NCBI RefSeq assembly: GCF_036250065.1
Contig: NZ_CP109199.1
Span: 1,488,001-1,552,000 of the forward strand
DNA length: 64,000 nucleotides
Direction: 5' to 3'
DNA from: Micromonospora sp. NBC_01699
GTDB lineage: Bacteria > Actinomycetota > Actinomycetes > Mycobacteriales > Micromonosporaceae
How positions within the stretch are numbered: the stretch's first letter is position 1; every line of letters starts with the position of its first letter. Shown one piece after another: positions 430 through 17,086 of the stretch. A program made the position numbers and the translations under genes. Below the pieces are notes generated by a model. That model ran no database searches. It was not told the DNA's origin and saw nothing but the letters and a program-made list of their open reading frames with translations.

Positions 430-485
430 TAGCAGATCAACCGCCTCGGCGGGCGTTTTCCACAGCCGGTCCCGGCTGTCCACAG
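430..485 (+). promoter_or_regulatory. Looser copy of the twin CTGTGGAC-box element upstream of the M23 gene
   Basis: The 207-536 gap holds no convincing gene. Its one structured part reads, on the minus strand, CTGTGGAC, 12 bases, CTGTGGAA, then TGATC and CTGCTATG. This is the order seen in the elements at 9219-9274 and 17031-17086, with one-base spacing differences. A CAGCCG/CGGCTG stem lies between the boxes. It sits 52 bp before the M23 start, in the same orientation relative to its gene as the other two copies. The boxes resemble actinobacterial DnaA boxes (TTGTCCACA). Function unknown. Confidence 0.45.
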
Positions 486-536
486 ACCGCCTCGGATCGG
501 TTGCGTCGCCGGACGCCAGCGGCCACGCTCGCGGCC

Positions 537-1226
537 ATGAGGACGTACCGTGCCCCGACCTTCCCGGCCCCGGCCCTGCCGCTGATCCTGTTGACAGCGC
601 TGCTACCGGCGACGCCGGCGGCACCCGCACCCGCATCGGCCGTCGGGTCGCAGGTTGGGTCGATGGTCGGGTCGCAGCTCGGGTCGATGGTCTGGTCGGC
701 CGCGGTTCAGCGGGTGCCGCTCGGGTCGATGGTCTGGTCGGCGGCGGTCCAGCGGGTAGCGGTCGAAGTGGTAGCGGCCGAGGTGGTGCCGGTCGAGGCG
801 GGGTGGCGGTGGCCGTTGGCGGGCGTACCCCGGGTGGCCCGCCGGTTCGACCCGCCGCCGCTGCCGTGGCAGCCCGGCCATCGCGGCGTCGACCTCGAAG
901 GCGAGGCCGGTGCGTCGGTCCGCGCGGCCGGCCCCGGCGTGGTGCTCTACGCCGGCCGGGTCGCCGGCACGCCGGTGGTGAGTGTCTCCCACGTGGACGG
1001 CCTGCGGACCACCTACCAACCCGTCGAACCCGCCGTACGCGTCGGTGATCGGATCGCCGCCGGGGACCCGATCGGAACCCTGCTCCCCGGCCATCCCGGC
1101 TGTCTCGCCGGAGTCTGCCTGCACTGGGGCCTGCGCCGGGCCGAGCACTACCTCGACCCCCTGGCGCTGCTCAACCTGGCCCGGGTCCGGCTGCTACCAC
1201 TGACCGCCCGACACCAACCGCCCTGA
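537..1226 (+). CDS. Secreted M23-family (LytM-like) peptidase-fold protein with altered active site
   Basis: 229 residues. An N-terminal hydrophobic segment (about 8-36) looks like a signal peptide, so the protein probably acts on or near the cell-wall peptidoglycan. The M23 fold covers about 90-215. The first metal motif is intact (His115 and Asp119 in GHRGVDL). In the usual HxH motif the first histidine is replaced: the sequence is VCLHWGL, with Cys194 and His196. A reduced or absent hydrolase activity is therefore possible, as in scaffold or activator LytM proteins. A 14-residue repeat (GSMVWSAAVQRV twice) comes from a 42-bp-period duplication at 681-757. M. tuberculosis has an M23 gene (Rv2891) beside rpsB in the same neighbourhood. 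I chose the ATG at 537 because the signal peptide follows it directly; upstream in-frame sequence is not protein-like. Confidence 0.8.
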   Translation: MRTYRAPTFPAPALPLILLTALLPATPAAPAPASAVGSQVGSMVGSQLGSMVWSAAVQRVPLGSMVWSAAVQRVAVEVVAAEVVPVEAGWRWPLAGVPRVARRFDPPPLPWQPGHRGVDLEGEAGASVRAAGPGVVLYAGRVAGTPVVSVSHVDGLRTTYQPVEPAVRVGDRIAAGDPIGTLLPGHPGCLAGVCLHWGLRRAEHYLDPLALLNLARVRLLPLTARHQPP

Positions 1227-6228: not shown

Positions 6229-7509
6229 TCAATTGGCGGTGGTGGTCGGGCGCGGGGACGGGGCGGCGATGGCGTAGCCGCCGTCGCGGCGGACGATCAG
6301 GTCGAGGTCTTCGAGCAGGGCGAGCTTGCGCAGCGTGAGCCGGATGTCCAGGCCGGCGCGGGCGGCAAGCTCGTCCGGGCCGAGGGCGCCCCGCCGGGGG
6401 AGCGCTTCGAGGACCAGGGCCGATTCGTCGTCGAGCAGGTCGCGGGGCTGGCGGGGGGCGCGGGCGAGCGGGGCCAGGTCCGCGCCGATCCGGCCGACCT
6501 CTTCGAGTACGTGTGGCACGCCGGTCACCAGCCGGGTGCGCGGATGTTCGCGGAGCAGTTCGTGGGCGCCCACGGACATCGCGGAGGTCACCGGGCCGGG
6601 CACGACCATCGCCGGCCGGTTGATGGCCAGCGCACGGCGCAGCGTCTGGGTGGCACCACTGCGGGCCGCGGCCTCGACCAGCACGGTTCCGGCGGTGGCC
6701 GCCGCGATCAGCCGGTTGCGGATCAGGAACCGGTGGCGCAGCGGCTCGGCGCCCGGCATCCACTCGCTGATCAGCAGTCCGGTCTCCACGATTCGGTCGA
6801 ACAGCGAACTGTTGCCCGCCGGATAGGGCCGGTCCACCCCGCAGGCGAGTACGGCCACCGTCAGCCCGCCCGCGTTGAGTGCGCCCCGGTGGGCGGCGGC
6901 GTCGACGCCGTGTGCGCCACCGGACACCACGGTCCACCGCCGGTTGGCCAGTCCGTAGCCGAGTTCGGTGGCGACGTAACCGCCGTACGATGTGGCGGCT
7001 CGGGCACCCACGACGGCGACCGCCCGGTCGAGCGTCTCGGCCAGCGGCCATTGTCCGCGCACCCAGATGGCCAGCGGTGGCGCGGTGTCCTGGTCGATTC
7101 TGCGCTCGGCGGCGGCCAGCGACAGCAGTTCCAGGTCACGGACCTGCGGCGGCCACTCGTCGTCCTCCGGTACGACGATGCGGGCATCGAGCCGCCCGGT
7201 GTGCGCGATCGCGGCGGCGGCAACCTCGTGCGGGTCACCGGCCGCCCGCCGGGCCGCCACCGCGGCCAGCAACCGCCGGTCCGGTACGTCACCGGCGAGC
7301 ACCCGGTCCAGCGCGCCGACCGGCCCGAACTCCCGCACCAGCCGGTAGACCGACCAGGTGCCCGGTTCGGCGAGCCAGGTCAGGGCGACCCGGGCCAGCC
7401 TGACCCCGGCCAACTCGTCGGGCGGTGGCGGCGAATCCGTCGCCGGTTGGAGTGGGCCGGGAAGCGGGTGGATCGGCTCCGCCGGGGTGATCCGGCTCGG
7501 GATGCTCAT
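6229..7509 (-). CDS. dprA: DNA-processing protein DprA (Smf)
   Basis: 426 residues. The Rossmann-like DprA core is about 135-335: GARAATSYGGYVATELGYGL, VVSGGAHGVDAAAHRGAL, then PLRHRFLIRNRLIAA and VEAAARSGAT. A C-terminal winged-helix-like domain (about 365-420) follows. DprA loads RecA on incoming single-stranded DNA during transformation; in actinobacteria its role is unclear because natural competence is rarely seen. The ATG at 7509 overlaps the comM stop by four bases (ATGA), so the two are translationally coupled. The frame stays open upstream into comM, but that part is not DprA-like. Confidence 0.93.
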   Translation of the reverse strand: MSIPSRITPAEPIHPLPGPLQPATDSPPPPDELAGVRLARVALTWLAEPGTWSVYRLVREFGPVGALDRVLAGDVPDRRLLAAVAARRAAGDPHEVAAAAIAHTGRLDARIVVPEDDEWPPQVRDLELLSLAAAERRIDQDTAPPLAIWVRGQWPLAETLDRAVAVVGARAATSYGGYVATELGYGLANRRWTVVSGGAHGVDAAAHRGALNAGGLTVAVLACGVDRPYPAGNSSLFDRIVETGLLISEWMPGAEPLRHRFLIRNRLIAAATAGTVLVEAAARSGATQTLRRALAINRPAMVVPGPVTSAMSVGAHELLREHPRTRLVTGVPHVLEEVGRIGADLAPLARAPRQPRDLLDDESALVLEALPRRGALGPDELAARAGLDIRLTLRKLALLEDLDLIVRRDGGYAIAAPSPRPTTTAN

Positions 7510-9026
7510 GACGTCTCCATGGTTCGCAGGTTGGTTGCCTCGGCGACGTCGTCGGCGCCCGGCCGGTCCCGCCCGTCGAGGTCGGAGATGGTCCACGCCA
7601 TCCGGATGATCCGGTCGAAGCCCCGCGCGGAGAGGGATCCCCGGTCCAGTCGCCGGCGCAGCGTGTCGGTGCTGGCCGCCGGCAGCCGCCAGCGGGCCTG
7701 GCGTAGGTAGGGTCCGGGTACGTCGGCGTTGACCTTCCAGCCGAGCCCGGCCCAGCGGGCGGTCGCCGCGGCTCGGGCGGCCGCGACCCGAGCGCCGATC
7801 TCGGCCGAGGACTCGTTCGACTCGCCGCTGTCCATCAGCTCGGCCGCGCCCAACGGGCTGAGCGTCACCTGTACGTCGATCCGGTCCAGCAGCGGGCCGG
7901 AGATCCGGGACAGGTACCGCCGACGGGCCAACGGCGTGCACTCGCAGTGGGTGTCCCCGGCGGGCTTCGCGCACGGGCACGGATTCGACGCGAGTACGAG
8001 TTGCACCCTGGCCGGATATTCGGTGCCACCCCTGGCCCGGTTGATCACCACTCGACCGTGCTCCAGCGGTTGCCGCAGCGCGTCGAGTGCCCGCGACTGG
8101 AACTCGGCCGCCTCGTCCAGGAACAGGATGCCCCGATGGGCCAGTGAGACGGCTCCGGGACGGGCCAGCCCCGATCCGCCCCCGACGATCGCCGGTACGG
8201 TCGCGGTGTGGTGCGGGGCCTGGAACGGCGGCCGGCGTACGAGTTCCCCGCCCGGCGGCAGGAGGCCGGCGATGGAGTGCAGCGCGGTCACCTCCAGGGC
8301 GGTGTCGTCGTCCAGTTCGGGCAGGATCGACGGGAGCCGTTCGGCGAGCATCGTCTTGCCGGCACCGGGCGGGCCGAGCAGCGCCAGGTGGTGTCCACCG
8401 GCGGCGGCGACCTCGACCGCCCGCCGACCCAGCCCCTGACCGGCGACCTCGGACAGGTCCGGCCCCGACACGGGTGGAGCGGTCCGGCGCGGTGGCGGGT
8501 CGAGCAGCCCCACCCCGTCCCGGACGTACGCGACGAGCCGGTGCAGGCTGTCCACCGCCCGAACCCGCACTCCCGGTACGACCGCAGCCTCGGCGGCGTT
8601 CTCGACCGGTACGACCACCCGACTGATCCCCGCTCGTGCCGCGGCCACCACCATCGGCAGTACGCCCCGGATCGGTCGGACGGTCCCGTCGAGCCCCAGT
8701 TCACCGAGGATCACCACGTCCGCCAGCGGTGCCAGCGGCAGTTCGCCGGAGCCGCCGAGCATTGCCGCCGCGATGGCGAGATCGAATCCCGAACCGTGTT
8801 TGGGCAGGGTGGCGGGGAGCAGGTTGACCGTGATCCGACGGTTGGGCCAGTGTTGGCCGGAGTTGACGATCGCCGCGCGTACCCGGTCGCGGGCCTCGTT
8901 GAGGGCGGTGTCGGGCAGGCCGGACAGGACGACGGCGGGCAGTCCGGGGGCGAGGTCGGCCTCGACCTCCACCAGGTGCCCGGTCACCCCGACCAGGCCG
9001 ACGCAGAGCACCTTCGCGTAGCTCAC
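7506..9026 (-). CDS. comM: ComM/YifB family Mg-chelatase-like AAA+ ATPase
   Basis: 506 residues, the normal length. An N-terminal Lon-protease-like S5 fold domain (about 1-165; SYAKVLCVGLVGVTGHLVEV) is followed by an AAA+ module with Walker A GPPGAGKTMLAERL and Walker B GILFLDEAAEF, then a C-terminal Mg-chelatase-like domain. A cysteine cluster (NPCPCAKPAGDTHCECTP) is typical of the family. ComM of Vibrio promotes branch migration during integration of transforming DNA. I chose the GTG at 9026 (VSYAKVLCV) by family similarity; the open frame continues to 9197 with unrelated sequence. Coupled to dprA by ATGA. Confidence 0.93.
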   Translation of the reverse strand: MSYAKVLCVGLVGVTGHLVEVEADLAPGLPAVVLSGLPDTALNEARDRVRAAIVNSGQHWPNRRITVNLLPATLPKHGSGFDLAIAAAMLGGSGELPLAPLADVVILGELGLDGTVRPIRGVLPMVVAAARAGISRVVVPVENAAEAAVVPGVRVRAVDSLHRLVAYVRDGVGLLDPPPRRTAPPVSGPDLSEVAGQGLGRRAVEVAAAGGHHLALLGPPGAGKTMLAERLPSILPELDDDTALEVTALHSIAGLLPPGGELVRRPPFQAPHHTATVPAIVGGGSGLARPGAVSLAHRGILFLDEAAEFQSRALDALRQPLEHGRVVINRARGGTEYPARVQLVLASNPCPCAKPAGDTHCECTPLARRRYLSRISGPLLDRIDVQVTLSPLGAAELMDSGESNESSAEIGARVAAARAAATARWAGLGWKVNADVPGPYLRQARWRLPAASTDTLRRRLDRGSLSARGFDRIIRMAWTISDLDGRDRPGADDVAEATNLRTMETS

Positions 9027-9166
9027 CGCGACCCGCAGGGCTCGGCCTCGGGCGGGTGGGGATGCCGGCCGACGCGCTGGACTGGCATACCACGAACGCG
9101 GGGCGACGGTTGCGTGGCCGACGGGGATCCCAGGCGGGCGAGTGCGGCTGGTCGAGCGGTTGTCAT
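9023..9166 (-). CDS. Possible 47-residue ORF coupled to comM, perhaps a yraN remnant
   Basis: A minus-strand ATG at 9166 opens 47 codons ending in TGA that overlaps the comM GTG start (GTGA). The product, beginning MTTARPAALARLGSPSATQP, has no recognised domain. Its third-position G/C (about 72 %) is lower than in the neighbouring genes. The ATGAC start and the 53-bp distance to the upstream twin-box element resemble the yraN start (ATGAC, 51 bp). M. tuberculosis has yraN directly before comM, so this may be a degenerate yraN 5' end, or only a leader region. Confidence 0.25.
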   Translation of the reverse strand: MTTARPAALARLGSPSATQPSPRVRGMPVQRVGRHPHPPEAEPCGSR

Positions 9167-9218
9167 GGCAGGGACGGTGACCGATTCGCGCGGTCACCGG
9201 TAGCCCGCGCCAGCGCTC

Positions 9219-9274
9219 CTGTGGACAACCGGAGCGCCTGTGGACGGTCGGACGATCATGCCCTCGTTGTGCTA
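9219..9274 (-). promoter_or_regulatory. Twin CTGTGGAC-box element upstream of comM
   Basis: Read on the plus strand: CTGTGGAC, 11 bases, CTGTGGACGG, then CGGACGATCA and TGTGCTA at fixed offsets of 11 and 30 from the second box. By hand alignment it matches 43 of 56 bases of the element at 17031-17086 upstream of yraN, with identical spacing. The first box contains TGTGGACAA (9220-9228), the exact complement of the actinobacterial DnaA-box consensus TTGTCCACA. It lies 192 bp before the comM start and 75 bp before the divergent HxlR gene, so which gene it serves is not certain. Confidence 0.55.
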
Positions 9275-9349
9275 AGGATGTGCGCGTTTCTCGGTAAGGC
9301 TAGCCGCTTCGAAAAGCATAGCGCCAGCGGATCTGCTAGCTTTGGTGGC

Positions 9350-9703
9350 ATGACCAGGGCCGTCAACCACGCCGAGGCGGGAGCCTGCGACCGGGCCGAC
9401 GCGGCCCTGGCGCGTGCCTTCGGCGTACTCGGTAAGCGGTGGAGTGCGCTGGTGCTCGGCAGCCTGCGCAGTGGACCGGCCGGATTCCGTGAGTTGTCCC
9501 GAGCCGTCGAGGGTGTCAGCGATTCGGTGCTTTCCGACCGGCTGTCCGAGTTGACCGAGGTCGGTCTCGTCGCCCGTACGGTGGAAGCCGGGCCCCCGGT
9601 GTCGGTCTCCTACGAGCTGACCTCGGGCGGACTGGCCCTCATCCCGGTGCTCACCGAGATCTCCCGCTGGGCCACCGACCACCTCCCACACGACAAGCCC
9701 TGA
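9350..9703 (+). CDS. HxlR-family winged-helix transcriptional regulator
   Basis: 117 residues, standard for HxlR. Motifs: LGKRWSALVLGSLRSGPAGF at the start of the wHTH, then FRELSRAVEGVSDSVLSDRLSEL less its first part, and YELTSGGLALIPVLTEISRW. HxlR proteins commonly respond to quinones, aldehydes or other electrophiles through cysteines. Here the only clear cysteine is near the N-terminus (GACDRADAAL). The ATG has no good Shine-Dalgarno, but TAGCTT (9337-9342) lies seven bases upstream. AAGGCTAGC (9296-9304) and GCTAGCTTT (9335-9343) form an inverted repeat spanning the promoter, a candidate autoregulatory site. The next gene downstream, a pirin, is a plausible partner. Confidence 0.88.
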   Translation: MTRAVNHAEAGACDRADAALARAFGVLGKRWSALVLGSLRSGPAGFRELSRAVEGVSDSVLSDRLSELTEVGLVARTVEAGPPVSVSYELTSGGLALIPVLTEISRWATDHLPHDKP

Positions 9704-9819
9704 CCCACCGGGCCTGGTCGAGGTGCTGTACGGGACCGTGTCGGTGGTCCCCGACGCGGGCTAGGCTCGGCGGGTTGACGGCGGAGATCCGCGCGCCGCC
9801 CGGAGGCTGGAGGACGTAC

Positions 9820-10797
9820 GTGAGCACCACCGAGGCCGATCCGGAGTTCACCACCTGCGAGTCCGGGCCGGAGGGGCTCCAGATCCTGGAACCACGGCTG
9901 GTGCCGCTGGGCGGGCTGCGGGCGCTGAACGTACGCCGGACCCTGCCGCAACGGGCCAGGTCGCTGATTGGCGCCTGGTGCTTCGTGGACCACTACGGCC
10001 CGGACGACGTGACCGAGTCTGGCGGGATGGCGGTGCACGGCCACCCGCACACCGGGCTACAGACCGTGAGCTGGCTCTTTGACGGGGAGATCGAACACAG
10101 GGACACGGTCGGCTCGGTCCGTACGGTCCGGCCCGGCGAGGTGAACCTGATGACCGCCGGTCGGGGCATCGCGCACTCGGAGTTCTCGACCCCGGACACC
10201 ACCGTGCTGCGCGGGGCACAGCTCTGGATCGCCCTGCCCGAGCACGAGCGGCACAGCGAACCCCGGTTCGAGCACTACGCACCCGAGCCGGTCAGCATCG
10301 CCGGTGCCAGGGTGAGCGTCTTCGTCGGCTCCCTGCTCGGGTCGACCTCCCCGGTGCGTACGGCCACCCGCCTGCTCGGGGCGCAGTTGCGGCTCGACGC
10401 CGGGGCGACGGTGACCATCGAGGTGGACCCGGCCTTCGAACACGGCATCCTGGTCGACGACGGGCGGGTGACCGTCGCCGGTGCCGACGTCGGCCAGTCC
10501 GAGCTGCTCTTCGTCCAACTCGGACCGGCCAGCCTGACCATCACCGCCGAGTCCGGACCGGCCCGGATCCTGCTGCTCGGCGGCGAACCGCTGAACGAGC
10601 GGATCATCATGTGGTGGAACTTCATCGGGCGTACGCACGAGGAGGTTGTCGGATACCGCGACCGGTGGCAGGCGCAGGCGTTCGGCACCCACGACGAAGG
10701 CAGCGGTGAACGGCCGTACGGGCCGTTTCCCGCCGACTGGCAACAGCTCATCCCGGCGCCGCCCCTGCCCGGCGGCCGGCTGAAGCTCCGCCCCTGA
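9820..10797 (+). CDS. Pirin family protein (bicupin)
   Basis: 325 residues. The N-terminal cupin carries HYGPDDVTESGGMAVHGHPH and TGLQTVSWLFDGEIEHRDT, followed by VRPGEVNLMTAGRGIAHSE, holding the metal-binding His/Glu residues of pirins. The C-terminal cupin (about 180-300) is recognisable. Some bacterial pirins have quercetin-dioxygenase-like activity and others act as redox sensors, so the role here is unknown. I chose the GTG at 9820, seven bases after GGAGG-like sequence, over the TTG 45 bases upstream. It follows the HxlR gene by 116 bp on the same strand and begins the run pirin, GNAT, AhpD-like. Confidence 0.88.
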   Translation: MSTTEADPEFTTCESGPEGLQILEPRLVPLGGLRALNVRRTLPQRARSLIGAWCFVDHYGPDDVTESGGMAVHGHPHTGLQTVSWLFDGEIEHRDTVGSVRTVRPGEVNLMTAGRGIAHSEFSTPDTTVLRGAQLWIALPEHERHSEPRFEHYAPEPVSIAGARVSVFVGSLLGSTSPVRTATRLLGAQLRLDAGATVTIEVDPAFEHGILVDDGRVTVAGADVGQSELLFVQLGPASLTITAESGPARILLLGGEPLNERIIMWWNFIGRTHEEVVGYRDRWQAQAFGTHDEGSGERPYGPFPADWQQLIPAPPLPGGRLKLRP

Positions 10798-10832
10798 GCC
10801 CCCCGACCCTTCCCCGGAGACGAGGCACGTCC

Positions 10833-11162
10833 ATGACGAACACCAACCCCGAACCAACCGTCGAGCTGGACGAGGCCGGGCACCGGTACACCATCACCGT
10901 CGCCGGTGCGGTCGCCGGCTTCGCCCGGTATTTCGACAACGACGGCCAACGGGTCTTCTTCCACACCGAGATCGACAAGGAGTACGGCGGCCAGGGGCTG
11001 GGCGGCCGACTCGTCGGCGGAGCACTCGACCACGTACGCGCCGCCGGGCTGCGGATCGTGCCGATCTGCCCGTTCGTGAAGTCGTACCTCGGTCGGCACC
11101 ACCAGTTTGACGACCTGATCGACCCGGTCACCCCGAACCTGCTCGCCCGGATCGGTGCATAG
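10833..11162 (+). CDS. Small GNAT-fold protein (YjdJ / Acetyltransf_CG type)
   Basis: 109 residues, the size of the minimal YjdJ-like GNAT group. It shows GFARYFDNDGQRVFFHTEI, the acetyl-CoA pyrophosphate loop region KEYGGQGLGGRLVGGALDHV, and PICPFVKSYLGRH near the end. These proteins are predicted N-acetyltransferases; substrates are mostly unknown. The ATG is preceded by GGAGACGAGG. Its TAG stop abuts the GTG start of the next gene with no gap, so the two are translationally coupled. Confidence 0.85.
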   Translation: MTNTNPEPTVELDEAGHRYTITVAGAVAGFARYFDNDGQRVFFHTEIDKEYGGQGLGGRLVGGALDHVRAAGLRIVPICPFVKSYLGRHHQFDDLIDPVTPNLLARIGA

Positions 11163-11651
11163 GTGCCGCCGGCCCGCCGCCTCTATCTCGACAAGCAGTC
11201 ATCCGCGATCTTCAAATCGCTCACCGCGGTCGCCGTCCAGGTACGGGCCCAGGCCACCGAACTCGGCCTGAGCCGTCGCCTGCTCGAACTGGTCAACATC
11301 CGGGTCTCGCAGCTCAACGGGTGCGGGTACTGCCTGCAACTGCACACCGCGCGAGCGCTCGCCGAGGGCGAGACCACGCACCGGCTCTCCGTGCTGACCG
11401 TCTGGCGGGAGACCGAGCTGTTCGAGCCGAGGGAGCGGGCCGCGCTGATGCTCGCCGAGGGGGCGACCCTGGTGGCCGGCGAGCGGATCACCGACGCCGA
11501 GTACGCCTGGGTCACCTCGGTGCTGACCGCCGACGAGATCTCCGTACTGAGCTGGGCGGCGATCACGATCAACTCGTTCAACCGGGTGTCGATCCTGAGT
11601 CGGCACCCCGTACCGGTGCAGGGCCCGGCGGTGGCCGCGGACGCCGGCTAG
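11163..11651 (+). CDS. Carboxymuconolactone decarboxylase / AhpD-like protein
   Basis: 162 residues. The core motif is ELVNIRVSQLNGCGYCLQLH: a CxxC pair followed by histidine, the AhpD-type redox and proton-relay site (about residues 58-65). Members reduce peroxiredoxin partners or defend against peroxides. The GTG start follows the GNAT stop directly (TAG then GTG), so expression is coupled. Grouping with pirin and an HxlR regulator suggests an oxidative or electrophile stress set, which is inference from context. The gene is convergent with the threonine aldolase gene, 19 bp apart. Confidence 0.85.
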   Translation: MPPARRLYLDKQSSAIFKSLTAVAVQVRAQATELGLSRRLLELVNIRVSQLNGCGYCLQLHTARALAEGETTHRLSVLTVWRETELFEPRERAALMLAEGATLVAGERITDAEYAWVTSVLTADEISVLSWAAITINSFNRVSILSRHPVPVQGPAVAADAG

Positions 11652-11670
11652 GCTGCTTCGCCGGCGTGGG

Positions 11671-12771
11671 TCAGCGTTCGCGGACCGCGCGCAGCACCAG
11701 TTCGCGCAGCAGCTCGACCACCTCGGCCGGGGTGAAGTCCATCGCGTTCTCGTGCACCGTGACCTCAAAGCTCGACCTGGTCGGATCCGGCGCGGACCGG
11801 ATCCGACCGAAGAGCTGGACGCCGTGCTCGGCGAGCATCGCCGCTGCGGCCCGTTCGACCGCCGGACCGCCCGCCGGCAGGTGCACGTGGAACAGCGGGG
11901 TCTGCGGCGGGTCCGGCCAGGCCAGCGCCACCCCGTCGGCGTTGATCGCCGCCGCGATCGCGATCGCGTGATCCCGGTAGGCCGGCATCCGGGGCAGCAG
12001 CGTGTCGAGCCCGGCGAGCGCGGCCAGGGCCAGCGGCCAGGCGTCGGCGATCGCCCCACCGAGCCGGGTACGCCACACCGCCGCCTCCGCGATCGTCGCC
12101 GCGTCGGCCGCCAGGACCGCACCGCGTACGCCCTGGAGGGCCTTGTAGAGCGACACGTACACGGTGTCGAAGAGACCGGCGATCTCGTCGAACGGCAGCC
12201 GGTAGTAGGTCTGCGCCTCCCAGATCCGGGCGCCGTCCAGGTGCGTTGCCGCCCCGCCGGCCCGTACCGCCTCGACCTGCGCGCGCAGGTCGTCCCACTC
12301 GGGCAGCTGACCGCCGATGTCGCGCTGTGGCAGCTCCCACAGCACCGCCGCCAGGGGTTCACCGATCGCGTCGAGGTCCGCGCCGGTCATCAGCCGGTGG
12401 CGGTCACCGGCCGGGTGGAACCGCAACCCGTGTACGACCTGGTAGCCCTGTGCCTCCCAGGTATCCAGGTGGGTCTGCGGGTGGGCGGCGAAGGTGGGTA
12501 CGCCGCGACGCTGGGCGTGGATCCGGAGCGCGACCTGCTGGGCCATCGTCCCGGTCGGGAAGAACAGCGCGGATTCCTTGCCGAGCAGGGTGGCCAGCCG
12601 CCGTTCGAGCTGCGCCATCGGCCCGTCCGGACCGGCGGTCGGGGTGTCGGTGTCGACCCGGTCGAGGAGTTGTCGGAGCACCGCCTGCGGGCTCAGCCGG
12701 ATCGGCGCGTGCGCGAACAGGGATCGCCGGATCGGCGGGCGGGCATCGGGCGTCGACATGATCCAGAGCAT
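11671..12771 (-). CDS. Threonine aldolase-like PLP-dependent beta-eliminating lyase
   Basis: 366 residues from ATG 12771. The fold-type I PLP signature is present: ALFFPTGTMAQQVALRIHAQ near the N-terminus, HLDGARIWEAQTYYRLPFDE with the cofactor-binding Asp, and SLYKALQGVRG with the expected Schiff-base lysine. The family cleaves threonine or allo-threonine to glycine and acetaldehyde, or catalyses related eliminations. Start choice: ATG 12771 has AAGGTGG ten bases upstream; ATG 12759 (MSTPDARP) is the alternative. A TTG at 12795 is unlikely. Confidence 0.85.
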   Translation of the reverse strand: MLWIMSTPDARPPIRRSLFAHAPIRLSPQAVLRQLLDRVDTDTPTAGPDGPMAQLERRLATLLGKESALFFPTGTMAQQVALRIHAQRRGVPTFAAHPQTHLDTWEAQGYQVVHGLRFHPAGDRHRLMTGADLDAIGEPLAAVLWELPQRDIGGQLPEWDDLRAQVEAVRAGGAATHLDGARIWEAQTYYRLPFDEIAGLFDTVYVSLYKALQGVRGAVLAADAATIAEAAVWRTRLGGAIADAWPLALAALAGLDTLLPRMPAYRDHAIAIAAAINADGVALAWPDPPQTPLFHVHLPAGGPAVERAAAAMLAEHGVQLFGRIRSAPDPTRSSFEVTVHENAMDFTPAEVVELLRELVLRAVRER

Positions 12772-12897
12772 GCCGTTGTTGCCACCTTCTCGCAATAAAG
12801 CTCGGTCCTTGTCACGGACCGGGCGTCAGGGCCGCCGACGGGGTGTCCATCGTGGGGCGATCCGGGTTTACTTCTCCCAATGCCGGAGGGGGACACC

Positions 12898-13536
12898 ATG
12901 TCCGGAAGTCTGACCGTACGGCTGGCCGGGGCGGACGACGCGCCGACGGTCGCGAGCGCGCTCGCGGTGGCGAGCCTGGACGAGGCGGTCCTCGCCTGGG
13001 TGGTTCCCGACGAGCGGGCCCGCCGGGATCGGGTCACCTCCGGTGCGGAGCAGACCCTCGCCTGGGTGCACGGGGTGCTCGCCACCGGTGAGGTCCTGGT
13101 CGCGCAGGTCGACTCCGGCGTGATCGCCGGGCTGTCCCTGTGGGAGTTCGACAACGGCGATCCCGTCGGCACCGACCCCGCCGAGCTGAGCGCCTTCCTC
13201 GCCCGGGCGTACGGCGAGTACGCGCCCCGGATGGCCCTCGTGCACGAGCTGACCCGGCGGCGTCACCCGCGCGGCGAACCGCACTGGTACCTGCAACAGA
13301 TGGTGGTCGTACCCGATCATCGCGGGCGCGGCCTCGGCGGCGCGATGCTCAGCCACCAGTTGGCGCGGGCCGACGCCGCCGGAGTCGCCGCCTATCTGGA
13401 GGCCAGCTCGCCGCGCAACCGCAGGCTGTACGAGCGGCACGGGTTCCGGGCGCTCGGCGGCCCGATTACCCTGCCGGACGGCCCCGGCGTACAGCCCATG
13501 TGGCGGCCGGCCGCCACCCCCGCCGAACCGCGGTGA
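12898..13536 (+). CDS. GNAT-family N-acetyltransferase
   Basis: 212 residues. The acetyl-CoA-binding motif A is MVVVPDHRGRGLGGAMLSHQ (about 140-160), followed by LEASSPRNRRLYERHGFRAL, the usual C-terminal half of the fold. The N-terminal half (VRLAGADDAPTVASALAVAS) resembles GNATs that act on small amines or antibiotics, but the substrate cannot be read. I chose the ATG at 12898 because GGAGGGGG lies directly upstream; the ATG at 12880 is less well placed. Monocistronic, convergent with the acyltransferase gene. Confidence 0.87.
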   Translation: MSGSLTVRLAGADDAPTVASALAVASLDEAVLAWVVPDERARRDRVTSGAEQTLAWVHGVLATGEVLVAQVDSGVIAGLSLWEFDNGDPVGTDPAELSAFLARAYGEYAPRMALVHELTRRRHPRGEPHWYLQQMVVVPDHRGRGLGGAMLSHQLARADAAGVAAYLEASSPRNRRLYERHGFRALGGPITLPDGPGVQPMWRPAATPAEPR

Positions 13537-13560
13537 CCGGTCGCCCGCCCCGGACGGCCA

Positions 13561-14829
13561 CTACGTCCGGGCCGGCGCGTCGGCCGCCTCGGTCCCGGCC
13601 GGGCTGTCGGTCCCGGCTCGGCTGTCCGGCGTGGCTCGGCTGTCCGGCGTGGCTCGGCTGTCGGGCGTGGTCGGGCTGGCGGGCCGGTCGGCCGGGCCGG
13701 GCTGACGCGGTACACGGGCCGTCGTCGCTGGTGGTTGTGGCGCCGGCCGCCGCCGGGGTCCGAGCAGGCGCATCATCGGGGTTTCCACGAAGCGGTACAG
13801 CAGGCCGGCGAGGACGAGGTTGAGCAGCAGGAACCCGACCGCCGCGGCCGGTCCCCACCAGCCGGGGAAGCCGTTCAGGTGGTCGGTGGCCCGCAGCACG
13901 CTGGTGACCACGAACACGTGCACCAGGTAGTAGGCGAAGGAGACCTCGCCGAGCCAGCGCATCGGCCGGGACCGCCACGGCGACCAGGTGCCGCGTACGT
14001 CCGCCTCGGCCGCTGCGGCGATCACCAGGATGTACGCGGCGGCGAGCAGTGTCGTCCACAGCTCGGCGCGGATCCACTGGGTGGCGACCACCCAGGTCAG
14101 CACGAAGATCAGGGTGGCGATCTTCAGGTTCGGCCCGCGCCACCGGCCGCGCACCATCAGCTCGGCCGCCGCCACGCCCATCCAGAACTCCAGCGAACGT
14201 ACCAGCGGGAACACCTGGGTGAACCACCAGCGGTCCGGCTCCGGCACCAGCAGCTGCCCCGGCCAGAGGGAGAGGATCAGCAGCGGCATCGCGACGATGA
14301 TCGTGACCAGTACCCAGGGGCGCAGCCGGCGGATCAGCGGGAGCACCAGGGGCAGGCAGAGGTAGAAGAACAGCTCGCAGGAGAGCGACCAGCTCACCGT
14401 GTTGACGCTGTAGAACCAGCCCGGCGTCGGGTTCCACGCCTGCACCAGGAAGAGGTTGGTGAGCGCGACCTTCAGGTTGAACGGGTCCGCCCAGTAGAGC
14501 CCGAGCAGCAGCACGGCCGCCCACAGCACCACGTGGTTGGGGAAGATCTTCGCGGCCCGGCGACGCCAGAACCCGACCGGGCTGTCACCGGGTCGGGCCG
14601 ACCAGACCAGCACGAAACCGCTGAGGATAAAGAAGAACTGGACCCCGGACAGGCCGAGGGTGAACACCTTGCTGACCACGGCGTGGTAGTCGGGCTCGGC
14701 GATGACCCGCATCGTCCCGACGTGGAAGCCGAAGACCAGCATGGCGCCGACCCACCGCAGACCGGTCAGTGACGGCAGCCTGCTGAGTGGTCGGTCAGTG
14801 GCGGCGGTGGTGGTGGCGGTGGTCGTCAT
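13561..14829 (-). CDS. Acyltransferase-3 family integral membrane protein with repetitive tail
   Basis: 422 residues. It opens with RLPSLTGLRWVGAMLVFGFH, the family hallmark with the catalytic histidine, and has about ten hydrophobic segments to residue 365. Acyltransferase-3 proteins O-acylate cell-surface sugars, antibiotics or lipids in the membrane. The C-terminal 55 residues are a cytoplasmic or extracytoplasmic repeat tail built of TPDSRA units, encoded by an 18-bp tandem repeat at about 13610-13680. The start ATG 14829 is preferred because MTTTATTT precedes the first conserved block; no clear Shine-Dalgarno is seen. It ends 24 bp from the convergent GNAT gene. Confidence 0.85.
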   Translation of the reverse strand: MTTTATTTAATDRPLSRLPSLTGLRWVGAMLVFGFHVGTMRVIAEPDYHAVVSKVFTLGLSGVQFFFILSGFVLVWSARPGDSPVGFWRRRAAKIFPNHVVLWAAVLLLGLYWADPFNLKVALTNLFLVQAWNPTPGWFYSVNTVSWSLSCELFFYLCLPLVLPLIRRLRPWVLVTIIVAMPLLILSLWPGQLLVPEPDRWWFTQVFPLVRSLEFWMGVAAAELMVRGRWRGPNLKIATLIFVLTWVVATQWIRAELWTTLLAAAYILVIAAAAEADVRGTWSPWRSRPMRWLGEVSFAYYLVHVFVVTSVLRATDHLNGFPGWWGPAAAVGFLLLNLVLAGLLYRFVETPMMRLLGPRRRPAPQPPATTARVPRQPGPADRPASPTTPDSRATPDSRATPDSRAGTDSPAGTEAADAPART

Positions 14830-14993
14830 GACGCCCGGCACTCTAACCCGTACGCCGGTGTCGTCGAGCAGCCCGGGTCCGCTTCCGCTGGGGATCGGCC
14901 GCTTCGGGGGCGATGAGGCGTACATCCCTGATTTCCGTACTCGTCATTGACATCGGGTGGATTGTTCCCCCGTCCGCCCTACCGTGCCCAGTC

Positions 14994-16439
14994 ATGGTCC
15001 TCACTCGATCGGGCCCCGCGCCCGCCCGTGTCACCACCCCCGGCCGGGTCGTCGTCGGCCTGTTGACGCTGGCCGCCTCGGTCGGCACCCTCAGCGCCGT
15101 CGACACCGGCACGCCGGCCGCCGCGGCGCCCGGCAGCGTCGTCGTCTCCGCGAACTTCGACACCGGCGGTCTGCCCGCCGGCTGGCGGGCCGTCGACGGT
15201 GACTGGACGGTCAAGAACGGCCGACTGTACGGCGCCGCCGGCAGCGGTTCGAAGAAGATCACCTTCGGGCGGCACCTGAACGACTTCCGGCTGGAGGCGA
15301 CGGTCCGGTTCGAGTCCGTGGCCGAGGCGACCCGATGGACCGCGCTCGGGCTCGACGTACCGGCCGCGGGCACCCCGCCGTGGTGGATCGCGACCCTGCG
15401 CAGCGGCAGCACCGCCGCCAACGGGCTGGAGTTCGCCCAGCTCACCACGGCGAACACGTGGAACGTGACGAACACCGCCGCGGCACCCTCGGCGGCCGGC
15501 ACCGGCCGGGACATCAGCATCGCCGCCGAGGTGCACGGCATCAACGCACGCTGGTTCTTCGCCGGCCGGGAGGTGCTGCGGACCAGTGGTCTCCAGCGTT
15601 CGGCCGGCGGAGTGCAGGCGCTGATCGTGAACGGGGCCACCGTGTCGTTCGACAATGTCAGGGTCACCGAGCTGGCGCCGAACCCGTACATCCGGCCGGT
15701 CGGTGCGCCGCTGACCGTCATCGCCCACCGGGGCGCCTGCGCCGTCGCGCCGGAGAACACCCTGGTGGCGCAGGACGTCGCCCGGCGCAACGGGGCCGAG
15801 TGGATCGAGAACGACGTCCAGCCGAGCAAGGACGGCGTGCCGTTCGTGATGCACGACAGCACGGTCGACCGCACCACCAACGGCACCGGTGCGATTCGCA
15901 ACCTCACCGCCGCCCAACTCAAGCAACTCGACGCCGGTTCCTGGTTCGGCCCGCAGTTCGCCGGCGTACGGCTGCCGACGCTGGCCGAGCAACTGGTCGA
16001 CCTGCGCACGCGGGGCGGAAAGCTGCTGCTGGAGATCAAGGGCGCGCACAGCAAAGCCCAGGTCGCCAGGATCATCGACATCATCCGGGCCGAGCAGATG
16101 ACCGACCGGGTCTTCATCCAGAGCTTCGAGACCAGCGCCCTCACCTACAGCTACCAACTGGCCCCGGAGATCCCGCTCGGCCTGCTGCGCAGCACCCTCG
16201 ACGCGGACCCGGTGGCGATCGCCCGGCAGTACCACCTGACCGCGTACAACCCGGCGGTGGCGGCGCTGACCGCCCGTCCGGCCGTTATCGCCAACCTGCA
16301 CACCGCCGGGGTGGCGCTGATGGTCTGGACGGTCGACTCGGCCGGCCAGTGGCAGCAGCTCAAGGGCCTCGGGGTGGACGGGATCATCACCAACCGCTCG
16401 CCCGAACTCGTCGACTGGAACGCCGCCAACCCCGGCTGA
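14994..16439 (+). CDS. Secreted glycerophosphodiester phosphodiesterase with N-terminal jelly-roll domain
   Basis: 481 residues. A signal peptide (about 15-45) ends at AAAAPGS. Residues about 48-230 form a beta-rich domain like concanavalin/3-keto-disaccharide-hydrolase modules (LPAGWRAVDGDWTVKNGRLY). The GDPD TIM barrel spans about 238-478: IAHRGACAVAPENTLVA with the catalytic His-Arg, ENDVQPSKDGVPFVMHD with the metal Glu/Asp and second His, and GGKLLLEIKG. It probably hydrolyses glycerophosphodiesters or teichoic-acid-like polymers outside the cell. It is divergent from the acyltransferase-3 gene. A TACCGT hexamer (14981-14986) lies close to the ATG. Confidence 0.9.
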   Translation: MVLTRSGPAPARVTTPGRVVVGLLTLAASVGTLSAVDTGTPAAAAPGSVVVSANFDTGGLPAGWRAVDGDWTVKNGRLYGAAGSGSKKITFGRHLNDFRLEATVRFESVAEATRWTALGLDVPAAGTPPWWIATLRSGSTAANGLEFAQLTTANTWNVTNTAAAPSAAGTGRDISIAAEVHGINARWFFAGREVLRTSGLQRSAGGVQALIVNGATVSFDNVRVTELAPNPYIRPVGAPLTVIAHRGACAVAPENTLVAQDVARRNGAEWIENDVQPSKDGVPFVMHDSTVDRTTNGTGAIRNLTAAQLKQLDAGSWFGPQFAGVRLPTLAEQLVDLRTRGGKLLLEIKGAHSKAQVARIIDIIRAEQMTDRVFIQSFETSALTYSYQLAPEIPLGLLRSTLDADPVAIARQYHLTAYNPAVAALTARPAVIANLHTAGVALMVWTVDSAGQWQQLKGLGVDGIITNRSPELVDWNAANPG

Positions 16440-16470
16440 CCAACGCCCCGCCGGAAGGCTGTGCCGCCTC

Positions 16471-16554
16471 GGTGGGTCGTGCGGCGCGGCGGTGGGTCGT
16501 GGCGCGGCGGTGGGTCGTGGCGCGGCGGTGGGTCGTGCGGCGCCGGTGGGCCGT
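16471..16554. repeat. Five degenerate 18-20-bp tandem units after the GDPD gene
   Basis: GGTGGGTCGT or GGTGGGCCGT recurs at 16471, 16491, 16509, 16527 and 16545 with periods of 20, 18, 18 and 18, separated by GGCGCGGC-like spacers. The array fills the space between the convergent GDPD and yraN genes, where a terminator would be expected. No clear hairpin is present. Confidence 0.75.
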
Positions 16555-16602
16555 GCCGCTGGTCGGCGTGGCTCACCGGCCGGGGCTTGACCGGCCGGGG
16601 GC

Positions 16603-16980
16603 TCAGAACGCCCCCTTGAGGTGTTCCACCCGCGCCGCCCCGCGCGGTGGCGCGAACACCGAGACCACGTCGAAGCGGACCTCGGCCGGACGGGCCGACG
16701 ACTGTTCCAGCCACCGCGCGGCCAGCCGCCGCAACCGCCGCGCCTTCGCCGGGACCACCGCCTCGGCGGGTGGGCCGAAGGTGCCGCCGCGCCTGGTCTT
16801 CACCTCGCAGAACGCGAGTACGGCACCGTCCCAGGCGATGATGTCGATCTCCCCGGCCGGACCGTGCCCGCCGGCCGGCGTACGCCAGTTCCGGTCCACC
16901 ACCCGCAGACCGCTCGCCACCAGGTGCCGTACGGCACAGCGCTCGCCGTACGCGCCGACCGCTTTCCGTTCCAGCGTCAT
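16603..16980 (-). CDS. yraN: YraN/UPF0102 family predicted endonuclease-like protein
   Basis: 125 residues, full length. The restriction-endonuclease-like core is visible: GAYGERCAVRHLVASGLRVV, then GEIDIIAWDGAVLAFCEVK, giving the Glu/Asp...E-x-K metal site. The biochemical role of YraN proteins is unknown. M. tuberculosis has this gene (Rv2898c) immediately before comM (Rv2897c) and dprA. Here about 7 kb of other genes separate yraN from comM, so the ancestral operon is split. A twin CTGTGGAC-box element lies 51 bp upstream. Confidence 0.9.
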   Translation of the reverse strand: MTLERKAVGAYGERCAVRHLVASGLRVVDRNWRTPAGGHGPAGEIDIIAWDGAVLAFCEVKTRRGGTFGPPAEAVVPAKARRLRRLAARWLEQSSARPAEVRFDVVSVFAPPRGAARVEHLKGAF

Positions 16981-17030
16981 CCGTCGAGGGTGACCGGACC
17001 GGCCGTACGGCGCTGCCGTCGACCGGGAGG

Positions 17031-17086
17031 CTGTGGACGAGGCGACGCCCTGTGGACGGCCGGACGATCAAGCCACTGCTGTGCTA
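17031..17086 (-). promoter_or_regulatory. Twin CTGTGGAC-box element upstream of yraN
   Basis: CTGTGGAC at 17031 and CTGTGGACGG at 17050 (19-base period), CGGACGATCA from 17061 and TGTGCTA at 17080. All spacings are identical to the element at 9219-9274. The element starts 51 bp before the yraN ATG, and on its other side is only the 3' end of the DUF2332 gene, so a role for yraN is the natural reading. Confidence 0.55.

Follow-up and report, generated by a model that had tools for sequence, protein, structure and literature searches.

Two genes of DNA processing, comM and yraN, lie apart on the chromosome of Micromonospora sp. NBC_01699, and a preliminary description of the 64,000-bp stretch analysed here (the window; contig NZ_CP109199.1) noticed that both are preceded by a 56-bp element with two boxes, beginning at positions 9219 and 17031. 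What does this element do there, and which protein reads it? The answer we propose is that the element very probably constitutes the activator-binding half of a promoter common to the natural-transformation (competence) genes of actinomycetes, a reading made from sequence and based on four observations: the element itself, the set of genes behind it, the fixed position of a -10 hexamer, and the agreement of box spacing between promoters.

A shared element and the genes behind it

The two copies are identical at 43 of 56 bases, the same count as in the preliminary description, and their flanks show background identity. The exact 40-bp pattern CTGTGGAC-N11-CTGTGGACGG-N-CGGACGATCA occurs in the window only at 9219 and 17031, with up to three mismatches allowed, and in none of 100 shuffles. 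Both gene names agree with NCBIfam matches (YraN, 1.8e-45; YifB/ComM-type ATPase, 9.9e-141). Random scatter or a mobile repeat had been considered as well; in the whole 8.28-Mb genome, CTGTGGAC-N11-CTGTGGAC was found at two places only, which are the window copies before yraN and comM (reversed-pattern control, 0). With orthologous positions kept across genera amid diverged flanks, a mobile repeat was rejected, and this explanation, or a chance likeness of GC-rich intergenic DNA, is extremely improbable.

Read in the direction of the genes, the box named first in the preliminary description is the promoter-proximal box2, and its 'TGTGCTA' becomes TAGCACA, a third motif. The comM copy, on the minus strand, comprises this distal motif (TAnCA[G/C] type; 9268..9274), the TGATCGTCCG sub-motif (9249..9258), box1 CCGTCCACA (9239..9247), box2 TTGTCCACA (9220..9228), which is a DnaA-box-like 9-mer, and the predicted -10 hexamer CACCGT (9174..9179), 68 bp from the start of box1. 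The YifB-type AAA ATPase gene comM occupies 7506..9026 and is followed by dprA (6229..7510, start approximate), both on the minus strand. The yraN copy, likewise on the minus strand, has TAGCACA (17080..17086), TGATCGTCCG (17061..17070), box1 CCGTCCACA (17051..17059), box2 TCGTCCACA (17032..17040), and the predicted -10 hexamer CACCCT (16987..16992, offset 67), and the ATG of yraN (16603..16980, minus strand) lies at the predicted start point.

The expectation that the strict pattern would be conserved in relatives held only in part: with a spacer of 9–13 bp, the CTGTGGAC/CTGTGGACGG form was present in only 32 of 200 family genomes, and yraN or comM was found in 9 of the 30 loci fetched. Conservation becomes visible only with the relaxed core TCCACA. 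In the genome of the window, TGTGGA-N13-TGTGGA has seven occurrences (reversed-pattern control, 0), all of them sense-oriented ahead of a gene: yraN, comM-dprA, comEA-comEC, Ssd/CpaE, a CpaB/SAF-like gene, and two AbiEi-nuclease-like genes. The CpaB/SAF-like gene has no Pfam or NCBIfam match and owes its label to a reading of the sequence, while the two AbiEi-nuclease-like genes gave AbiEi-type and MTES_1575/DUF559-type matches, partly under curated cut-offs. When spacings of 16–22 bp were admitted, 15 matches were obtained versus 6 in the control, so that the excess outside 19 bp is largely noise apart from the M23 peptidase and recA sites; the latter, ahead of a gene whose start matches RecA of genome G037, has boxes at spacing 18 and the -10 in place.

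Sixteen relatives contributed 75 twin-box sites (reversed-pattern control, 3), bringing the family survey to 82 sites in 17 genomes after 3 duplicates out of 85 had been dropped. Transformation or Tad-pilus genes follow 51 of the 82 sites (yraN 10, comM 6, comEA 8, Ssd 12, TadA 3, CpaB-like 4, SSB 8), and M23 (5) or AbiEi-type nuclease-like (12) genes follow 17 more. At those 51 sites, as expected of a competence regulon, one element stands ahead of uptake, pilus, and single-stranded DNA (ssDNA)-processing genes at separate loci. These sequences favour two earlier proposals, conservation in relatives and a regulator shared by the DNA-processing genes, M23 being included in its targets; the preliminary description had recognised the DNA-processing genes but missed that the gene set is that of transformation and the pilus, and also missed the fixed -10 distance. 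For the 35 sites that had no reference match, a Pfam scan covered 30; L225 and L250 have the same starts as L246 and L244 and were assigned accordingly, and L222, L232, and L236 were counted as unknown. L211, with a weak match of 39 bits, was taken as AbiEi-type, and sites 18, 47, and 52, labelled ComM by BLAST, were counted as yraN since yraN starts first.

A third copy in the window (430-529, plus strand), with a box spacing of 20, precedes an M23 peptidase gene (537..1226) whose product has an N-terminus resembling a secretion signal, as judged by reading of the sequence. It consists of the distal motif TAGCAGATC (430..438), box1 TTTTCCACA (456..464), box2 CTGTCCACA (476..484), and the predicted -10 hexamer CACGCT (524..529), all on the plus strand. 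M23 was found in 70 of 80 named loci fetched with ComM as the query, with a sense box no more than 800 bp upstream in 62, twin boxes in 43, and an antisense box in 1.

Genes matching an AbiEi-type helix-turn-helix (HTH) and/or an MTES_1575/DUF559 nuclease-like model recur downstream of the element at L116, L118, L207, L213, L226, L262, L264, and other loci, up to three per genome; their products are possibly nucleases that act on incoming DNA. Twin boxes also precede phage-integrase-family genes at L206 and L237 (G041), where the -10 phase of the com promoters is absent. At G151:C26:16106-16259 and G090:C1:2213115-2213196, an 18-bp unit of the CTGTGGACGG type is repeated in arrays.

Promoter architecture and its conservation

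The layout of the promoters is TAnCAG(ATC), about 26 bp, box1 YYNTCCACAG, box2 TTGTCCACAG 19 bp further on, and a -10-like NANNNT at 48–49 bp, counted from where box2 starts. In the 68 com-type sites (yraN, comM, comEA, ssd, tadA, cpaB, ssb, M23, and abiEi), the boxes read YYNTCCACA, box2 mostly with TTG or TCG ahead of the search core TCCACA, and TAnCA[GC] lies 27 or 26 bp ahead of box1 in 58. NANNNT stands at 68±1 bp from the start of box1 in 60 of them, the median over offsets being 2; this is the constant operator to -10 distance that characterises activator-dependent promoters. For the uptake and pilus subset, the -10 is in its predicted place (±1) at 46 of 51 sites, and no conserved -35 column was seen among the 68. 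Taking the -10 as -12 to -7, the offsets would put the centre of box2 near -57, that of box1 near -76, and that of the distal motif near -103. A structured leader RNA, suggested by a 7-bp inverted repeat noticed by eye around one box of one copy (copy A), is hardly credible, with no Rfam match in the window, shuffle-like folding energies (z -1.07 to 0.17), and predicted transcription starts that fall downstream of the element.

The element is traceable well beyond the family. Matches to yraN were obtained in 141 of 148 genomes, and a class sample built from the first-listed genome per genus gave 67 yraN regions, 65 of which (230 bp each) were counted after L173 and the too-short L188 had been left out. 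TCCACA is the commonest 6-mer there, present in 52 of the 65, with 78 sense and 11 antisense occurrences and 3.2 in shuffled sequences. A comEC match was obtained in 56 genera, and 52 regions were used, one per genus (the genome of the window, G005, and two fragmentary genomes, G217 and G222, being outside the sample); comEA was missing by tblastn from two, leaving 50 comEA loci. Between -900 and -200 of the ComEA domain, TCCACA occurs 60 times in sense and 5 times in antisense; within 1.1 kb, a sense box is present at 38 of the 50 loci and an antisense box at 8. The 80 named loci behave similarly: the 100-bp stretches immediately upstream of yraN hold 111 sense and 1 antisense TCCACA (about 79 loci), the next highest sense bin holding about 17, with totals of 334 sense and 272 antisense over 1,592 kb, and a sense box lies within 200 bp of the yraN start in 72 of the 80 and two boxes do in 45.

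Scored with a relaxed box, 28 of 47 genomes have a box pair at both yraN and comEA. Pair spacings at class level are mostly 17–20 and 26–31 bp, some being 21–24 or 32–34 bp, and in 21 of the 28 genomes the yraN and comEA spacings differ by no more than 1 bp, compared with 25% under permutation (0 of 10,000 permutations reached the observed value), though these values overstate the certainty because related genomes are not independent. Among promoters with a box pair, the -10 is found 47–49 bp from box2 in 34 of 44 at yraN and 29 of 39 at comEA, compared with a median of 2 at the other offsets, and anchoring the distance at box1 gave no sharp peak. Since the -10 keeps its distance to box2 and not to box1, the fixed site is box2, with box1 moving between lineages by about one helical turn. 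Some clades carry TCCCCAG variants at matching spacing, and upstream of comEA at L306 (G247) four boxes of the same core follow one another at exact 31-bp intervals.

We infer that the genes are activated together, by a single protein reading all sites, in the service of competence. An activator would occupy two direct TTGTCCACAG-like half-sites, with centres near -57 and -76, aided in the window's family by the TAGCAGATC-like motif near -103, and would bring RNA polymerase to the -10 hexamer at a fixed distance. Its regulon would include DNA uptake (comEA-comEC) and Tad-pilus genes (ssd/cpaE, tadA, cpaB-like), ssDNA processing (yraN-comM-dprA, an ssb, and, in some genomes, recA), and, beyond these, an M23 peptidase as well as AbiEi/DUF559 nuclease-like proteins. 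The wider proposition, that this is the class-wide operator through which a master regulator governs natural transformation in Actinomycetota, and that it defines as new members of competence M23 murein hydrolases and AbiEi-fused, restriction-like nucleases directed at incoming DNA, is one that we hold with somewhat more belief than doubt. By analogy with pneumococcal CbpD, one idea is that the M23 enzyme might serve fratricide, or else the opening of the wall.

Several points weigh against these proposals. The 16 relatives were chosen by hand, and 8 of them had already given a match in the strict-pattern scan. Other or unknown genes follow 14 of the 82 sites (XRE 2, integrase 2, RecA, RecQ, GyrA, and UPRT 1 each, unknown 6); of these, 6 have the -10 in place within ±1 (recA, two XRE genes, three unknown) and 3 at the exact position, so some may belong to the regulon. 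The TAnCA motif was examined in one family, and it is absent from the recA site. At class level, 10 of 65 yraN regions lack TCCAC, 12 of 50 comEA regions lack a sense TCCACA, and 19 of 47 genomes have no pair at one or both of yraN and comEA. It is from the position of the boxes alone that we infer activation and not repression. Finally, many of the species concerned are not known as transformable.

In actinomycetes, which include antibiotic producers, soil bacteria, and relatives of major pathogens, a master switch of DNA uptake by transformation would gain a concrete sequence address. A sequence-defined operator with fixed geometry could be used for fishing out the regulator for predicting the regulon in new genomes, and for testing whether species thought to be non-transformable retain an intact programme.

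Known systems and the reader of the boxes

Competence regulons of other phyla are governed by ComK boxes in Bacillus, ComX/SigX in streptococci, and CRP-S sites in gamma-proteobacteria. They resemble the present one in that a single cis-element precedes uptake, pilus, ssb, dprA, and recA genes, and also in a cell-wall hydrolase, as in pneumococcal fratricide, here M23; sequence, spacing, and phylum are different. The ComK box is AAAA-N5-TTTT, and CRP-S sites are palindromes; neither motif appeared among the conserved columns of the 68 com-type sites, no scan aimed at either having been made. PafBC-type promoters (TTGTCRGTG-N8-TANNNT) share with the element a TTGTC core and, in some genomes, recA as a target, but their motif lies 8 bp before the -10, whereas here the gap is about 39 bp and there are two boxes.

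The closest experimental parallel is Micrococcus luteus, in which comEA/EC, Tad pili, and a CpaB/SAF gene are transformation genes (PMC4322843, PMC8467076, PMC12849477). In the study of its com genes and the Mlut_14650/14660 locus, knock-out of the SAF gene lowers transformation 10^4-fold (PMC8467076). Homologues or look-alikes of these transformation genes are targets of the element. M. luteus reportedly has neither ComK nor ComX (PMC12849477; for ComK also PMC4322843), and according to a 2026 study (PMC12849477) the upstream signal or cascade behind its competence is still to be found. The sections of PMC8467076 that were consulted describe no common promoter motif and propose an HTH-17 protein with no known tie to the element; none was recognised by eye among the ORFs (open reading frames) in 12 kb around the cpaB-like gene, these ORFs not having been scanned with Pfam. 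Among the open-licence titles and abstract openings in the matches listed, there was no account of the element or of an actinomycete competence regulator binding it.

On balance we lean towards a dedicated dimeric activator whose half-site resembles a DnaA box. A spacing common to two promoters of a genome and shifting between lineages speaks for it, since spacing that alters in concert at two promoters is expected of a fixed dimer; so do the fixed phase to the -10, the third motif, and the mostly different spacing on the oriC side. Against it stands the strong coincidence that a half-site identical with the DnaA box would require, and no candidate gene was found; XRE-type genes with a twin box were rejected as encoding the reader, giving only weak HTH-model matches and occurring in 2 of 17 genomes.

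That the boxes are true DnaA boxes, with DnaA as a transcription factor coupling the transformation genes to replication status, is a real but lesser possibility, already raised in the preliminary description. Its sequence argument has stood: the 68 com-type sites fit the 9-mer (TCCACA itself having been the search core), TTGTCCACA, the consensus of box2, and variants including TTATCCACA being DnaA-box forms, with the half-site of actinobacterial DnaA boxes in direct orientation, and boxes of that sequence are also present in the same genome's dnaA region. The DNA-binding domain PF08299 is found once per genome in 31 of 31, which favours DnaA itself and led us to reject a stand-alone paralogue with this domain as the reader. 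The spacing gives a mixed picture and appears to fit DnaA less well. Neighbouring boxes on the oriC side of 30 genomes are mostly 9 and 12 bp apart (31 of the 78 pairs with a spacing of at most 40 bp), and 4 of 78 pairs fall at 17–20 bp and 4 of 78 at 26–31 bp, where most com pairs lie, though 32–34 bp (10/78) and 20–21 bp (9/78) overlap or border the com range. The agreement between yraN and comEA spacings, the fixed -10 phase, the additional TAGCAGATC motif, and the TCCCCAG variants also count against DnaA, while the oriC-side box sequences themselves gave no separation of DnaA from another reader. Escherichia coli DnaA favours boxes 2–3 bp apart (PMC11317965). With either reader, replication-type DnaA boxes, or their look-alike, would be linked to horizontal gene transfer.

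Origin of the comM copy

Among named sequences, ComM has its best matches in Micromonosporaceae, the best segments reaching 83% in Micromonospora sp. U21 and 80% in Plantactinospora mayteni. In all 80 named loci yraN lies ahead of comM, mostly directly, and dprA homologues follow comM in 78. The two genes are apart, with the element at both, in the genome of the window, its congeners G001 and G002, P. mayteni (L057), and G037. The preliminary description took a duplicated ancestral promoter as one explanation, and it has gained ground: the element stands before yraN in loci with yraN-comM, the window copies are more like yraN and comM copies than copies at other genes, and GATCGTCC, the core of the TGATCGTCCG sub-motif, is found upstream of box1 in 6 of 10 yraN and 4 of 6 comM copies and at none of the 66 other sites, making it specific to the yraN and comM copies seen. 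Most simply, these sequences suggest that the comM copy is a duplicate of the yraN promoter, by which comM would have stayed under the same control after the yraN-comM-dprA operon had split. Two findings count against a single duplication event: comM of G035 and of G060 is immediately preceded by a second element, which lacks the GATCGTCC sub-motif, and still has yraN as its neighbour; and other promoter pairs elsewhere are equally alike, yraN and ssd copies agreeing at up to 46 of 55 positions.

Between the predicted start point and comM lies a leader ORF of 47 codons (9023..9166, minus strand), with its ATG 1 bp from that point and its TGA overlapping the GTG of comM; leader ORFs with a stop overlapping the comM start have 51 codons in G002, 46 in G001, and 13 in P. 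mayteni. They are perhaps relics of translational coupling to yraN. In the window, about 7.4 kb of other genes (9275-16600) separate yraN and comM, and a stretch at the same place in P. mayteni looks, by eye, like the aldolase-like gene at 11671-12795.
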